From Amaranthus tricolor (Eukaryota; Streptophyta; Magnoliopsida; Caryophyllales; Amaranthaceae): a DNA stretch of 64,000 nucleotides. Position numbers and translations under genes: made by a program. Below, in pieces: positions 6,212 through 49,768 of this stretch. Under the pieces are notes generated by a model that was not told the origin of the DNA, did no database searches, and worked only from the letters and a program-made list of their open reading frames with translations. Location of the stretch: contig NC_080057.1 in NCBI RefSeq assembly GCF_026212465.1, positions 18,277,733 to 18,341,732 on the forward strand. Reading direction: 5' to 3'. The first letter of the stretch is position 1, and every line of letters begins with the position of its first letter.

Positions 6212-6245
6212 CCTCACTCTATCAAGTGAGTAAGTAAACTACCTT
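6212..6245 (-). repeat. Hairpin element, family A
   Basis: 34 nt in nad4 intron 3. Minus strand starts AAGGTAGTTTACTTACT and ends GTGAGG. Stem-loop CTCACTTGATAGAGTGAG pairs over 6 bp. Confidence 0.8.
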
Positions 6246-6460
6246 CGAAAGTTTCTTTTTTTTTGTAGTGACTTCGAATCAATAGGCCTCCCCCTTTTTT
6301 TTCATTTTGTTTGAAGCGGGCCAAATAAAGAATGAAATGCGGAAATAGGGGAAGGTACTAGAAAGATTTTTTGGTTTAAGGGCTGCTCGCTCTACCGAAG
6401 TACCAAAGGCTTTCGAGGCTTACACCTCTTACACGACCTAAAAAAAGCTTTCAGCAGCGC

Positions 6461-6494
6461 CCTCACTCTAACGAGTGAGTAAGTAAACTACCTT
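6461..6494 (-). repeat. Hairpin element, family A
   Basis: 34 nt in nad4 intron 3. Stem-loop CTCACTCGTTAGAGTGAG pairs over 7 bp. Its AAGG end (CCTT on plus, 6491-6494) is shared with the adjoining B element. Confidence 0.8.
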
Positions 6495-6526
6495 ACTCTA
6501 TCAAGTATTATAATAGGAATTACCTT
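6491..6526 (-). repeat. Hairpin element, family B
   Basis: 36 nt, minus strand starting AAGGTAATTCCTATT and ending AGTAAGG. Chained to the A element at 6461-6494 through a shared tetranucleotide. Confidence 0.75.
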
Positions 6527-8221
6527 CAAATCTAAGCCTTTTGAAGTGCCAGTAGTTGTAGCTGTGGGTAGGGCTTTCGTTCTTATCGCTCCGGGTTCCG
6601 ATCTATATGACCTCCGGACGGTACAAAGTAAACTTCTTCCGGGTAATAACCTAACTCTGTTCAACGGGGGAGCCCTACGTACTTTCCAGTCCAGGACAAC
6701 TGAGATCTTCCGTTCTGCGTGCGTGGGAACAGCTCAAACAAAGAAAAGTCTGGTCTGGTCTGAATTCAGGCATGGCCCGCCTGTCTGCTACTAGGAGAGT
6801 AAGCAACTTCTATTAGCACCGGACCTTGAGTCGAATTTCTCGTGTCATGTGCAACGTCCATCAATGATGGTTCATAAATGTCCATTGATTTAGACTCCTT
6901 CCCTCTTCCCAACTACGAAAAAGAGCGAGAGGCGAAGAGCAAACCAAGAACGGAAACGGAAGTCTTTTTACTCCCCAGTCTCTCTTAAATAAAGCTCGCC
7001 AAGGCGACCTGGGCAGGTCGGCCGGGTCTTCCCCTGTTGTTATGTTTCCGCCACGAGAAAGAAGCGCGGAAGAAGTATGCCCAGCGCGCAGAAGATCCGT
7101 TGAGAGTTTCTGTTGTCTCGGTAGGGAACTGTACGATCTTTTCCCCTATTGTATTGAATCAATAAAAAAAGAAGTCAGCGCTACGGCCTCCTATTGTTTG
7201 ATCCAATATTGACCAGGGACGAGCCCCGACTTCCATAGGTCCTTGGTTTGACCTCCCTAACAGGGGTCACCTTGCTTTTAAGAAAGCGGAGCAGGGCCGA
7301 TTTCTCGTACTTGCTTAGTGTGTCCTCCTTTCGTCGAGTGCTCTTCCCGGTTCACTGGGCTGTTAGCCTACCAAGCACTTGCCTGCTGCTCCTGCCTAAG
7401 CCAAGCGGGCGGAGCGCTCGTTATCCTTACTCTTCTCTCTGCGGGGCCCCCTCCCATTGCTCTAGCCATAAGCAATGGCAGCTCCAGCTCGCAACCACAG
7501 GGGCTTGCCCTTCGAGGCCGGGGTGGGCTCAGCAGTCAGCCTCCATTCGAATTACGTTAGGGGGTCTTTCTCTTTTGCCAGATCTAGAGAGATACTACGA
7601 GTCCTCCGTCCCAGATTCTATCGCCGCGGCCATCTGGTTCACCGGTACTACCAAAAAGTCTCATGCTTACGTTACGCTTATTGATGGTTTTATTATCTTG
7701 GACCACGAAGACTCCGGTCGTGCTTCTGGTTTCTATTCTCATCATCATATTGATGATAAATCTCCTCGTGCTCTGCCATAAGAACTTGGAGTCTGTATCA
7801 TGGTGAAGGTAAGGTAACGCTGTGATTCTTGCTCAAAAAACAGACCGAAGGCGTTCGAGTTATTGGCTCGTTCGATCTGGCAGCATTCATGAGTCGCTCG
7901 TTCAACTGTCCCTCGGAGACACGGTCGAGAAATGCCATTACCAGGGTAGGGTAACCTCCGTCCTTTCTTTCTCTCGGTCTCACCCAACAAGATAGGGCTC
8001 AGCCAAAAAACGTGAGCGCCCCTGCGCGAGCCTTATTTGAAAAGTCAAGCTTTGGCTCCCTAAAGACTAAAGAAATGGAAAAAAAGGGGGGGACTTCCGC
8101 AACGGGCTATGCCACCCAAACCAACTGAGGGAAGTCGCATCCGTCCCATCGCAAGCACCTACAATGTCATGATCACATTGGTTTACCCCTTTTTCTTTGG
8201 TAGTTTAACGGACGGTCGCCC

Positions 8222-9159
8222 CTCCAACAAGAAAGGGTATAAATATGAAAACTTCTCTGCCGTTTGGATCGGAGAATTTATGGAGGAAGTCGGGTTTTAA
8301 ATTTCCAGAAACCACACGATTATATAGCCAAAGGGAATAGGCCGCGCCTAAAATCATCCCAAGCGCTGCTAATGTGGCTACTAAACTATTTCTTTGGAAA
8401 GCTCCTACTAAGATGAGAAATTCCCCGATAAAGCTGCTAGTACCAGGTAAACTCATATTGGCTAAAGTGAAAAAGAAGAAAATGGTAGAGAAATTCGGCA
8501 TGGTGCTCACTAAACCTCCGTAATATCTAACAAGTCGAGTCTTATGTCGGTCATATAGAACACCAACACATAGAAAAAGGGCTGAAGAAACCAGTCCATG
8601 ACTTAACATCGGTAGAATGCTACCTCCAATTCCCTGTATGTTCAGACTAAACATACCAATAGTCACAAAATTCATATGGGCTACTGAGGAGTAAGCAATG
8701 ATCTTCTTAAGATCGATCTGTCTTAAAGTGGTCAAGGAAGTATATATTATAGCAATCGCGCTTAGAGTATAAATGAAAGGAGTGAAACAAAGTGTCGCTT
8801 CAGGAAACATGGGTATTGAAAATCTTAAAAACCCGTAAGTTCCCAATTTTAAAAGAATTCCTGCCAAGATAACGGATCCTGCCGTGGGTGCCTCTACATG
8901 AGCTTCGGGTAACCAAATATGAACTGGTACCATAGGAACTTTGACAGCGAAAGAGGCGAAAAAAGCAATCCATAAAAAGATTTGGCGCCGCTCACTAAAT
9001 TCTGTGGTTAATAAGATTTGTAAATCGGTGGTTCCTGTTTGGAGAAGAATCAAGAGAATAGCTAATAGCATAAAAACGGATCCAAGTAAAGTATAAAGGA
9101 AAAACTGATATGCTGCCTTGATCTTTCTTTGTCTCGAACCCCATACCCCTATAATAATG
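8222..9159 (-). CDS. nad4: nad4 exons 2+3 fused (intron at 976 absent)
   Basis: 938 nt encoding the central antiporter-like membrane core of NAD4, from IIIGVWGSRQRKIK through HIWLPEAHVEAPTAG and LRQIDLKKIIAYSSVAHMN to FIFIPFLVG. Usually this is two exons (515 and 423 nt) separated by an intron at nt 976. Here reading is uninterrupted and the length is exactly the sum. The 5' boundary follows CTCTAC on the minus strand; the 3' boundary precedes GGGCGACCG. Few codons still need editing (P in GSILPML is one), unlike exons 1 and 4. Confidence 0.96.
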
Positions 9160-47835: not shown

Positions 47836-47869
47836 CCTTACTTGTTCAAGTAAGCAAGTAAACAACCTT
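47836..47869 (-). repeat. Hairpin element, family A
   Basis: 34 nt, minus strand AAGGTTGTTTACTTG with 8-bp stem CTTACTTGAACAAGTAAG, identical in stem to the A element in intron 3 but inverted. Second copy 57322-57355. Confidence 0.87.
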
Positions 47870-48036
47870 CGTAGAGCCGTGTATTGTAAGTGATCCGAAC
47901 CTGCCCGGAGTGAGCCTCCCATAGAGGCAAGTGAGGTTGGTGAGCCGTATGATGGGAAACTATCTCCTGCGGTTCGGAGAGGACTCAGCTGTTAGTTAGT
48001 ACCCTCTTGGTTTCGGAGTGGACCCTTTCACTCTAT

Positions 48037-48224
48037 TTTATTATATACGTTTAGTGAAAAGAATGTTTTTTGATACACCTAGGACATGGATTCTATATGA
48101 ACCAATGGATCGTGACAAGTCGTTACTACTAGCAATGACTTCCTCTTTCATTACTTCATCCTTTCCATATCCTTCTCCCTTGTTCTCAGTTACTCATCAA
48201 ATGGCACTCAGTTTATATCTTTAA
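48037..48224 (+). CDS. nad2: nad2 exon 5 (C-terminus), intact copy
   Basis: 188 nt, the usual length, encoding YYIRLVKRMFFDTPRTWILY and the tail FSVTHQMALSLYL with TAA at 48222-48224. Intron boundary after CTCTAT. SSF/SSFPY positions fit editing to the family F/L residues. This is the only intact exon 5 in the window and probably the functional one. Confidence 0.97.
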
Positions 48225-49734
48225 GTTCGATAACAATCATTGACAAGGTTCAAAGAAAGGGTGGGCAATTTCTATTGATATTGATAAAGAATCGATTCCA
48301 AACCACAATGCTAGCAGATGGTGGGCCTCGTTCGTTCAATCAAGCAGCATTTTTCTTTTTCTTAACTTATTATGGTAGTTGACTTACTTACTTGATAGAG
48401 TGAGGAGAGGCTCTGAAAGACCTCGAACGAATGTGAGAGGAAAGGAATTGGACTTGGCATCCATGCCCTTTTGAGGCTACTAGTTAAGAGACAAGGCCAA
48501 TATAGATGAAATCTAAGGGACCACTCCATTCAGTTCTACTCCTATGCATGCTTCTGCGGGCAGGTGAGATGTAATTGAAGGGCTACTAATCAGTCTTTTA
48601 AGTGCTACCATGATTTTGAGTTCAAAAACTAATGTACCTGGGCGAGAACAAGAACTTTTTTTTCTCCTACTAGTAAAAGACTTTCCCGTAGGGGAATTCC
48701 TCTAATAGCCTGCGCTACAGCAATCCAATTCCCAATCAGAATGCTTTTCTTTTAGAATTCCCTCACTTCTGCACACCAAAGCCCTTTCTCCGGAAGCCTC
48801 TTCTGTGGCGGATACACATGACTCTACTAGTAGCTTCCTTTAGAAAGCTAACGAAGAATGGAACTATGACCGTGGGAATTTTTTTTTTAATCAAGAAAGT
48901 ACCACGCCTCTGAGCCCTCTTGCCCACTAGTAACTCTGTTCACGGTTAGCTGGGAAGGAATGTGAACCAATTGTTGACAGAGATGATTTGATTAGCTTTG
49001 GAAGGTAGGCTTTCAGATAGTAATTTTTGTTTAGTGATGGTCTTGTTCAAATGCTTTCTTTCCTCCCGAGGGTTCGGGTCAGGAGCGGTCCTAATAGGGA
49101 TAGGCGCATTTCCACTGTTAATGTTAACAAAAGCGCTAATCTCTTATAAGCCCCTCGCCTGCGGGAAAGAGACCTCCTTACTTGACTACCACCGACTGGC
49201 TTGCCCGAAATACCAGGACTGATACCGACAGAATGCTTTCAACCGCTTTGCTACTGGTTCGCTTGGAATGAACCCTTACTGCGCTGCTCCCCTTCTATAG
49301 ATTGGAGTAGTCCGGGAGAATCCCCTGTCACTTTGGTACCCCTTGGCTGTAACTTGTACTTATTACATTTTTATGCAATTTACTTTTTTTCTGTTTTTCT
49401 GAATTCTGTTGTTGTGTTTAAGTCCTTTTCAGCGAGGCAAAGTTGAATCCATTTTAGGAAAAAAATCCCTTGCTTCCCTACAAGCTTGATTAGAAGTTAG
49501 ATTGAGGTCGTGGTTCAATTAATTAAACATCTGAGGTCGCCCAATCTCAATTCAAGGGAATTTTGTCCTTAGTCTTGCATATAATCCAGTACACTCGAGT
49601 CCACATTCGATTAATGATAAGAATCTTAGATGAAGTGTTTAAAGGAAGTAGCTTGGAATGCGGCTAGCTCAGCCAAGAAGAGGACTAGATTCGAGCCGCG
49701 AGGTTTTAGTTCTTACTTTCACCTTCCTTTTTTT
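48225..49734. other. Spacer downstream of nad2
   Basis: About 1.5 kb with an A element at 48372-48405. Short unassigned frames only (48998-49222, 49201-49446). No gene recognised. Confidence 0.45.
48372..48405 (+). repeat. Hairpin element, family A
   Basis: 34 nt from ATGG to GAGG, hairpin TTACTTGATAGAGTGA, about 150 nt after nad2 exon 5. Second copy 57857-57890. Confidence 0.8.
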
Positions 49735-49768
49735 AAGGTAGTTGACTTGCTTACTTGATAGAGTAAGG
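49735..49768 (+). repeat. Hairpin element, family A, at the LINE 5' edge
   Basis: 34 nt AAGG to AAGG, stem-loop CTTACTTGATAGAGTAAG. Its last AAGG is in frame with the LINE (AAG GAA GAA = KEE). Second copy 59220-59253. Confidence 0.88.

Follow-up and report, generated by a model that had tools for sequence, protein, structure and literature searches.

Among the closest described counterparts of the repeats reported here are the Bpu sequences found in mitochondrial DNA of Cycas and Ginkgo. According to the sections of PMC8297867 used here, Bpu insertion sites are mostly common to two Cycas species, and one paper (PMC6971862) states that, besides Bpu, no repeat family of plants had been reported to expand. 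A title cited in PMC2800124 names palindromic repeats of rice (PRS) in angiosperm mitochondrial DNA, which were inferred to have been inserted after genus divergence, and another names target sites and tandem arrays for the GC clusters of yeast mitochondria; a passage of PMC2800124 describes Allomyces double-hairpin elements as free of flanking duplications.

In this study, we analysed a 64,000-nt stretch of contig NC_080057.1 of Amaranthus tricolor (the window), in which dispersed hairpin-forming repeats sit in spacers, in introns and sometimes in genes. The units are probably minute mobile DNA parasites, which would insert new copies of themselves directly behind NAGG. Such a family is now present in a caryophyllid and likely in Coriaria mitochondrial DNA, together with a landing site, element-free sites and apparently covarying stems, and the spread of Bpu-like elements, an old question, becomes testable in ordinary angiosperms. 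The units also give rise to altered gene ends, as in rps4, and to small insertions that mislead the alignment of introns.

The contig is chromosome-sized and is either a nuclear insert or mis-scaffolded mitochondrial DNA. In the 519.85-Mb assembly, one 0.84-Mb mitochondria-derived block contained 86 of the 91 A-pattern matches and 26 of the 27 C-pattern matches, and reversed-pattern controls of both scans gave 0. On this ground, a nuclear transposon was rejected. No exact match to five element patterns and no nad4 relative was found in the viral_contigs collection, and the plasmid collection had no match to window positions 6000-26000. Three candidates (L001, L004 and L005) fitted the pattern; in the model, however, they scored only 21.0, 18.8 and 23.3 bits, respectively, against 43.9 bits, and so look like chance.

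Element families and their copies

A common plan underlies all families: NAGG and T come first, then an unpaired leader (about 10-13 nt), a short hairpin and G, with a unit size of about 28-34 nt. A is mostly 34 nt, B mostly 36 nt and C mostly 32-33 nt in length. Leaders of A and B can be aligned with a 2-nt indel. Leader similarity was above shuffles for A-B, A-C, A-D, B-C and B-D (p 0.000 to 0.018), where D is the type at 34990-35026, and within the shuffle range for C-D (p 0.136). A, B and C, which the original prediction had put forward as three families, are thus subfamilies of one superfamily, to which one further leader type (34990-35026) is added. The 5' tetramer is mostly AAGG in A and B and often CAGG or AAGG in C, and A and B end in NAGG at the 3' side. 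Of the terminal (A)AGG that had been described for all of them, a shared NAGG end remains, but its first base is variable and mostly tracks its stem partner.

A hand catalogue of window positions 1-54000 lists 35 copies (15 A, 6 B, 11 C, 1 of the further type and 2 fragments), 21 on the plus strand and 14 on the minus strand. A detection score for leader plus hairpin was at least 22 at 32 places in the same range; the best of 20 Markov shuffles was 21.0 and the maximum in the reversed, uncomplemented window was 19.0. Since the score was trained on these same copies, it is the controls that bear the argument for their reality. The earlier count of about 35 copies on both strands, with consensus starts, lengths and coordinates, agrees with this catalogue and with the 32 places above all shuffles. 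Covariance models recovered the same element set, the recovery of the 18 A/B and 9 C training copies being by construction, and their matches have a G+C of 0.22-0.50.

When folded with RNA parameters, 9 of 10 sequences, Bpu included, gave an unpaired 5' part and a hairpin with the last AAGG; one C copy folds otherwise, and several A and B copies show an additional small 5' stem. DNA parameters gave the same plan for most sequences, with Ginkgo Bpu and one C copy as exceptions. The stems covary: in A, 98.8% of cells were paired versus 91.6% after shuffling (1 of 500 shuffles), and the excess was similar in the A+B set and in the C set. The stem of A copy 16369 is compensated (CTTAATC/GATTAAG), and that of C copy 44493 is CTTATTA/TAATAAG. 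Taken alone, the count of stem pairs changed on both sides is unremarkable, being reached by 45 (A), 27 (A+B) and 163 (C) of 500 shuffles, and such counts on related sequences may overstate covariation. Between 12 window and 2 Coriaria copies, identity was 0.90 in the leader, 0.62 in the hairpin and 0.50 in its inner part.

Many copies stand in head-to-tail arrays, in which neighbouring units have one NAGG in common. Domain V sequences at 5763-5871 and 9160-9277 place putative nad4 introns downstream and upstream, respectively, of the exon ORF 8205-9071. The downstream intron contains two minus-strand arrays, one of A 6212-6245 (54.6 bits) and then a degenerate A-like unit 6182-6215 (6182-6245 in all), the other of B 6491-6526 and A 6461-6494 (6461-6526); in the upstream intron A lies at 9815-9848 on the plus strand (52.5 bits). 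Further plus-strand copies are the compensated A at 16369-16402 and a 38-nt B at 18496-18533, the latter found by score and covariance model. On the minus strand, A at 19676-19709 overlaps the nad6 stop codon with its 5' AAGG, and A at 22660-22693 is at the edge of Coriaria homology. A C-A-B-C array (20612-20735, plus strand) lies within the 3' end of rps4.

Between 26 and 30 kb, an A 5' fragment is fused to C copy 26723-26754 (26706-26754, plus strand) and an A 5' part to another C copy (28500-28551, minus strand), both detected by score and covariance models. A minus-strand array at 26947-27010 is composed of a B-like unit (26976-27010) and A (26947-26979), and covariance models also detected C followed by degenerate C-like units at 28090-28127 on the minus strand. 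Plus-strand single copies are C 28684-28715 (42.0 bits), C 29958-29989 at the end of a LINE ORF1 (DUF4283) fragment, and A 32078-32111 (48.5 bits). The further leader type, GAGGTTATGCAATACA plus a hairpin, is at 34990-35026 on the minus strand and is weak in the A/B covariance model (E 0.081). Two C units in tandem (38883-38943, plus strand) come soon after tRNA-Met (38772-38844). A 260-nt LINE fragment has at one end a minus-strand A with a broken 3' arm (39563-39596) and at the opposite end a plus-strand A-B array (39857-39922). A clean insertion into LINE at 39563 and 29958 is not supported: by eye, the LINE pieces stop at the elements and do not continue beyond them. Two more plus-strand A copies are at 48372-48405 (5' ATGG, 47.3 bits) and 49735-49768 (54.1 bits). 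Six copies occur twice, as the 9.39-kb segment 44514-53900 has a near-identical second copy at 54001-63385, where self-match and covariance models place B 54163-54198, A 54738-54771, C 56562-56593, A 57322-57355, A 57857-57890 and A 59220-59253.

Landing site and element-free sites in likely Coriaria mitochondrial DNA

Of 22 blocks, 17 have A directly behind the terminal NAGG and 21 have a purine there, and 20 carry a purine at position +3; in the background, A follows 0.28 of 725 AAGG. The landing site is NAGG|AARG. Only 6 of 12 A copies have identical 5' and 3' tetramers, whereas in all 12 the leading base of the 3' tetramer can pair with the stem base opposite it (G-T counted), which argues against a target duplication. 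Two of the 8 array joints were informative, with CAGG behind a CTG stem and GAGG behind a CTC stem, and one of the 8, ATGG at 38911, is unpaired with its stem. The 5' NAGG is thus pre-existing target and the 3' NAGG a part of the hairpin, so that the "terminal repeats" are not a target duplication, a point that goes beyond the original prediction. Because of these differing origins and the stem-paired 3' tetramer, target-site duplication was rejected in general. The exception is A47836, which has one AAGG beyond what a single insertion predicts, and a 4-nt duplication is conceivable there.

Two Frankia assemblies from Coriaria nodules include contigs that resemble host mitochondrial DNA and are likely Coriaria mitochondrial DNA. 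The A family is also present in these contigs, and window copies are missing from them at seven comparable sites, in a comparison that spans two plant lineages at the distance from caryophyllid to Coriaria. At C 47075-47106 (minus strand) in the nad2 intron, CAGG|AAAG is contiguous in both Coriaria assemblies and is split in the window by exactly 28 nt; this exact empty site speaks for the mobile short element that had been proposed. Two A sites in the nad2 region are empty in Coriaria with small local differences: 45251-45284 (plus strand, before the nad2 exon ORF) and 47836-47869 (minus strand, in the nad2 intron, absent in both assemblies). C 44493-44525 (plus strand) is absent as well, with no NAGG seen in the Coriaria counterpart.

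At rps4, Coriaria has CCGAAGAGG|AAGGTTTGG (GAGG|AAGG), whereas the window has GAGG, four units and TAGGTTTGG, with TAGG after the units. This site is homologous on one side; left of the array, inspection by eye finds a short resemblance to the rps4 tail, which MAFFT did not show. The array cuts the rps4 reading frame (20730-21611, minus strand) at DPNLP and removes a C-terminus that is present in 118 of 120 listed homologues, and the rps4 protein is predicted to be truncated. At nad6, Coriaria has ACTAAAGG|GCAAG without an element and the window has ACTAAAGG followed by the A copy; AAAGG is present in Coriaria, and homology is on one side only. The test of mobility that had been named, element-free sites bearing a lone AAGG in relatives, is supplied by these contigs: the nad2-intron C site is exactly empty, and GAGG|AAGG at rps4 and AAAGG at nad6 stand without an element, each with one-sided homology. 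No recent movement is evident between the Coriaria assemblies, because all three insertions comparable in both (3 of 3) are common to both.

Proposed spread of the units and rival explanations

It is plausible, with a probability that we put just short of even, that these NAGG-following units, absent from several likely-Coriaria sites, spread by copying into broken or stalled DNA via NAGG, that is, by predicted template switching. Presence versus absence is read as insertion rather than precise loss because the unit is a dispersed repeat. A DNA 3' end in NAGG would pair with the NAGG ahead of a donor copy, would be extended across the leader and the hairpin, and would be released once the new hairpin snaps shut. 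The new (N)AGG end would then pair back onto the target. Because the unit ends in NAGG, again before AARG, the target would be rebuilt and arrays would lengthen at their 3' end; a self-rebuilt target would account for the arrays. Snap-back would often use the unit's 5' arm as the template for its 3' arm, so that stems would stay paired even as letters drift. Repair-like marks are present: B 44676-44711 (plus strand) replaces about 50 nt of other sequence that stands between the flanks in Coriaria, A is fused to C, and units lie at the edges of a LINE fragment. On its own, passive template switching leaves two features unexplained, the mostly full-length copies and a leader kept better than the hairpin; these features favour the idea that something reads the leader.

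A rival is enzymatic single-strand transposition, in which a hairpin-recognising nuclease would cut after the left NAGG and the hairpin-borne right NAGG and join the unit to the 3' side of a different NAGG, leaving no target duplication. In bacteria, IS200/IS605 and REP/RAYT elements insert 3' of a short fixed target without target duplication and have a hairpin near the end. The left NAGG of the target, the right NAGG of the element, the hairpin abutting the right end and the conserved leader are what such an enzyme would yield. Replacement and fusions at several sites resemble repair, however, and to our knowledge no nuclease of this sort is known in plant mitochondria, so that we regard this route as unlikely, if worth serious attention. 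An RNA route, in which short mitochondrial RNAs would be trimmed to the hairpin, reverse-transcribed and joined at NAGG, is distinctly improbable. The units end 1 nt past the hairpin, as do trimmed mitochondrial RNAs. The lack of flanking duplications at Allomyces hairpins has been interpreted in this way, according to the part of PMC2800124 used here. The fixed 5' junction directly after NAGG is, however, not explained by RNA 5' ends, and orientation relative to the host genes is mixed: the copies at nad6 and in one nad4 intron are sense, those in the second nad4 intron, in the nad2 intron and at rps4 antisense.

The remaining two explanations do without mobile units. Immobile, cis-acting hairpins selected for RNA 3' ends or stability would fit the copies at the nad6 and rps4 3' ends and the covarying stems. 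But antisense orientation is seen both for the array at rps4 and for the copies in the nad2 intron, several copies are intronic, Coriaria has none at the same genes, and the rps4 array deletes a widespread C-terminus; this reading is very improbable. Least probable of all is that the copies are only pieces of larger recombination repeats or of gene conversion. In a few pairs the flanks are partly common, as for 45242-45288 with 47878-47832 and for 9794-9853 with 48349-48410, and an A-B-C array recurs at C11:17920097-17920192. Most flanks are unrelated, however, the nad2 intron has an exact empty site, and self-matches of at least 45 bp extend no more than about 21 nt beyond the elements when two large copied segments are set aside. 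The condition that had been named as refuting mobility is not seen, as the copies are no fragments of larger repeats.

Comparison with known hairpin elements

Small mobile mitochondrial hairpins are also represented by the yeast GC clusters and the Allomyces double-hairpin elements. The window units differ from them in that they are not G+C-rich, consist of a conserved leader and one hairpin, and occur in different organisms. Likeness to IS200/IS605 and REP/RAYT concerns only the way of working, and no transposase of the plant units is known to us. Rice PRS are likened to the window units by title alone, both being palindromic repeats in angiosperm mitochondrial DNA. The original prediction knew of no description for angiosperms; the PRS title (cited in PMC2800124) names palindromic repeats reported earlier in rice.

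The likeness to Bpu that had been proposed is borne out in architecture. Like the window units, Bpu elements of Cycas and Ginkgo are about 36 nt long, have AAGG at both ends and start with AAGGT; the published sequences (from the part of PMC8297867 used here) fold alike, the 5' part being unpaired and the last AAGG lying in the 3' arm of the hairpin that follows. The Bpu10I site was found in 0 of 35 window copies. Compared without gaps, the window agrees with the Cycas Bpu consensus at 23/36 positions at best, versus 21-22 in five shuffles, and the place in question is not an element. The leaders show a weak similarity to Bpu (lowest p 0.016 in ten leader comparisons, uncorrected); sequence similarity is near chance overall and slightly higher for B and for the 34990 copy. 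The two thus have the same architecture, and their sequence kinship is not significant. It is possible, though on balance doubtful, that both belong to a seed-plant-wide superfamily of minimal mobile hairpins of about 30 nt, with Bpu as its gymnosperm branch, which would land after NAGG without target duplication and rebuild the target by themselves, the leader being read, the hairpin only folded and the arms rewritten by snap-back. The two AAGG-type ends of the window units differ in origin. The window units comprise several subfamilies with drifting stems, whereas Bpu has one dominant sequence.

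Hairpin units and their landing site

The hairpin elements are real. In the first 54 kb of the window, a leader-plus-hairpin score of at least 22 was reached at 32 places, whereas the maximum was 21.0 in 20 Markov shuffles and 19.0 in the reversed window. The hand catalogue of these 54 kb holds 35 units (15 A, 11 C, 6 B, 1 other and 2 A fragments), 21 on the forward strand and 14 on the reverse, in agreement with the original prediction of about 35 copies on both strands. Covariance models trained on 18 A/B copies and 9 C copies gave 58 and 15 matches, respectively, in the whole window (E up to 1), numbers that include the second copy of a duplicated segment and opposite-strand matches of palindromes.

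Each unit stands after a four-letter NAGG and has the plan T-leader-hairpin-G, as expected from the predicted layout of an unpaired 5' segment and a hairpin. The leader is approximately TAGTTTACTTR in subfamily A, TAATTCCTATTTG in B, and TATGTAGTCG or TTATGTAGTAG in C; most copies form a hairpin of 7 pairs with a loop of 3-4 nt. The stems covary. The third pair of the A stem takes the forms T-A, C-G, G-C and T-G; the fifth is C-G or A-T, and in one copy it is unpaired; C stems include CTTAAGC/GCTTAAG and CTTATTA/TAATAAG. Paired cells amounted to 98.8% in A (shuffled mean 91.6%, reached in 1 of 500 shuffles), 96.0% in A+B (90.5%, 0 of 500) and 81.0% in C (68.4%, 1 of 500), and two-sided changes were found at three pairs in each set, which 45, 27 and 163 of 500 shuffles equalled, respectively; kinship among the rows can inflate such measures of pairing and covariation.

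The units were predicted to share AAGG-type ends. NAGG is indeed present at both ends, but two terminal direct repeats are wrong in detail: the 5' and 3' tetramers are identical in 6 of 12 A copies, whereas stem pairing of the 3' tetramer's first base holds in all 12 (G-T counted). Most sites show no end duplication. NAGG is common to array members, the shared tetramer at eight joints being AAGG five times and CAGG, GAGG and ATGG once each; a CTG stem precedes CAGG and a CTC stem precedes GAGG, and the ATGG is unpaired. On the 3' side of the 22 blocks with both ends readable, a count that omits the truncated or fused copies at 26706/26723, 28090, 28500/28518 and 39563, A occupies the first position in 17 and a purine in 21, the third position is a purine in 20, and the fourth is G in 12. 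For comparison, both strands of the first 54 kb, with the elements counted, have 725 AAGG, of which 0.28 are followed by A. The landing site is NAGG/AARG (the slash marks the junction), and the unit's own end together with the old AARG is the same site again.

Genomic setting

Pfam families of the window include those that we read as mitochondrial nad2, nad4, nad6, rps4 and rps12, and atp9 was recognised in translation. Also present are five tRNA genes, group II intron ends, LINE and copia fragments, and pieces that we read as plastid rpoB and rpoC2. The window (G000:C11:18277733-18341732) is mtDNA inside a chromosome-sized contig, reflecting either a nuclear insert or mis-scaffolding. Mitochondria-derived DNA in which spacings recur takes up about 0.84 Mb of this contig (G000:C11:17590005-18428987). 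Exact matches in the whole assembly (519.85 Mb, 45 contigs) numbered 91 for the A pattern and 27 for the C pattern, with none for the reversed patterns; since 86 and 26 of them, respectively, fall in C11:17.59-18.43 Mb, where spacings recur, they are not all independent insertions. The A-B-C array occurs again at G000:C11:17920097-17920192 and, in part, at C3:28055899-28055980 (99% identity); its start coincides with the AAGG before the A unit, and the first C unit is missing.

A 9.39-kb segment is present twice (44514-53900 and 54001-63385, 99.86% identity) across a 100-N gap; the duplication may be genuine or may stem from the assembly. A 2.8-kb segment carrying copia gag and a reverse-transcriptase piece has an inverted copy (12557-15368 and 40049-42860, 99.96% identical), one copy stopping at the N gap 15369-15468. 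The stretch 19606-19664 before rps12 resembles 31958-32012 near atp9 (85% over 59 nt), a likeness that may mark an ancient site of recombination.

The rps4 gene (20730-21611, reverse strand) has lost about its last 11 residues to an array. Its nearest named matches, among those listed, are from Bienertia sinuspersici (66%) and Alternanthera (63%), which makes a caryophyllid close to Amaranthaceae the probable source. Of 120 homologues listed (of 543), 118 extend past the array point with a tail; the exceptions among them are P0109 and P0001, the latter ending exactly like the window. P0001 and P0121 are metagenome-contig proteins, each one residue off the window where compared; as P0001 shares the truncation, it is not an error in the assembly of a single plant. 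At 39563-39922, hairpin elements flank a 260-nt LINE endonuclease-like fragment on both sides, and the same right edge is seen for P0121, on a 135-kb metagenome contig.

Element-free sites in probable Coriaria mtDNA contigs

A scan of GTDB contigs with the A pattern gave five matches, two of them in the Frankia assemblies Cppng1 and CIT1; the other three look like chance. According to the publication on these strains, the CIT1 record series is from Coriaria intermedia nodules, and nodules of both C. arborea and C. terminalis are given for Cppng1 (PMC9392346). Because the matching contigs align with the window's nad2 region at 89-91% identity and tRNAs and group II introns are present on the CIT1 contig, we take them as host mtDNA; they look like that of Coriaria. 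Their G+C is 0.36-0.44. Long contigs of this appearance in the two assemblies are L002, L003 and L012-L030, and L014 has a plastid-type intron stretch.

The CIT1 contig was covered over 127,267 bp, one Cppng1 contig over 117,166 bp and a further Cppng1 contig in parts. This sequence contained A copies of 43.9, 32.6, 31.7 and 26.6 bits and no clear C copy; the reversed sequence gave none of at least 20, and a Markov model of one contig, shuffled ten times, did not exceed 19.0. The leaders are almost those of the window, whereas the hairpins differ (e.g., CTTAGTG-CTTG-CGCTAAG). Three of the four copies recur at the corresponding location of the other assembly; for the fourth, a search there found no flanks, the element alone matching another copy.

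The seven comparable window sites all lack the unit in Coriaria, one being clean on both sides. At this site, C 47075-47106 in the nad2 intron, TTTGGCCAGG/AAAGACTGCA is contiguous in both assemblies, and in the window 28 nt separate the two halves, an exact empty site of the kind that the original prediction named as a check. At rps4, a Cppng1 contig has GAGG/AAGG, and in the window four units stand between GAGG and TAGG; the right side aligns well, and on the left a short by-eye likeness to the rps4 tail (GGGCCATGTTTCC versus GGCCACGTCCGTTTCC) needs small deletions and was not placed by MAFFT. At nad6, ACTAAAGG is followed directly by GCAAG in Coriaria and by the A unit in the window; homology does not extend to the far side. 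AAGG is found without the unit at A 45251-45284, with length differences nearby, and at A 47836-47869, where both assemblies lack the unit. The sites of C 44493-44525 and B 44676-44711 are untidy, the latter having about 50 other nt between flanks matched by eye. The expected lone AAGG was borne out in part: NAGG is in place at the other five sites, but there is none at C 44493, and at A 47836 the window has one AAGG beyond the prediction of a single insertion.

Proposed spread of the units and known systems

We infer that the units move by copying. Template switching during break repair is favoured, because NAGG would be the only letters required, at both jumps, because replacement, fusion and a place at the edges of foreign DNA pieces are reminiscent of repair, and because the arms would stay matched, while their letters drift, through snap-back copying inside the hairpin. 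The main rival is an enzymatic single-strand route, since the leader is better conserved, suggesting that something reads it. An RNA route and a cis-acting role of the units are less likely.

Mitochondrial hairpin repeats have long been known from yeast (GC clusters), Allomyces, sponges and rice (palindromic repeats; PMC2800124). The original prediction knew of no description for angiosperms; six of the element sequences, searched in the open literature, gave no match. The Bpu literature covered describes no angiosperm family, nor do further titles indicate one, most subscription papers lying outside this coverage, so this is no proof of absence. A Bpu-like architecture with an apparently different sequence had been proposed. 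Plan and folding are like those of Bpu of Cycas and Ginkgo, but the Bpu10I site is absent from all 35 catalogued copies, and similarity to the Bpu consensus is near chance. By likeness of plan, the units work like Bpu.
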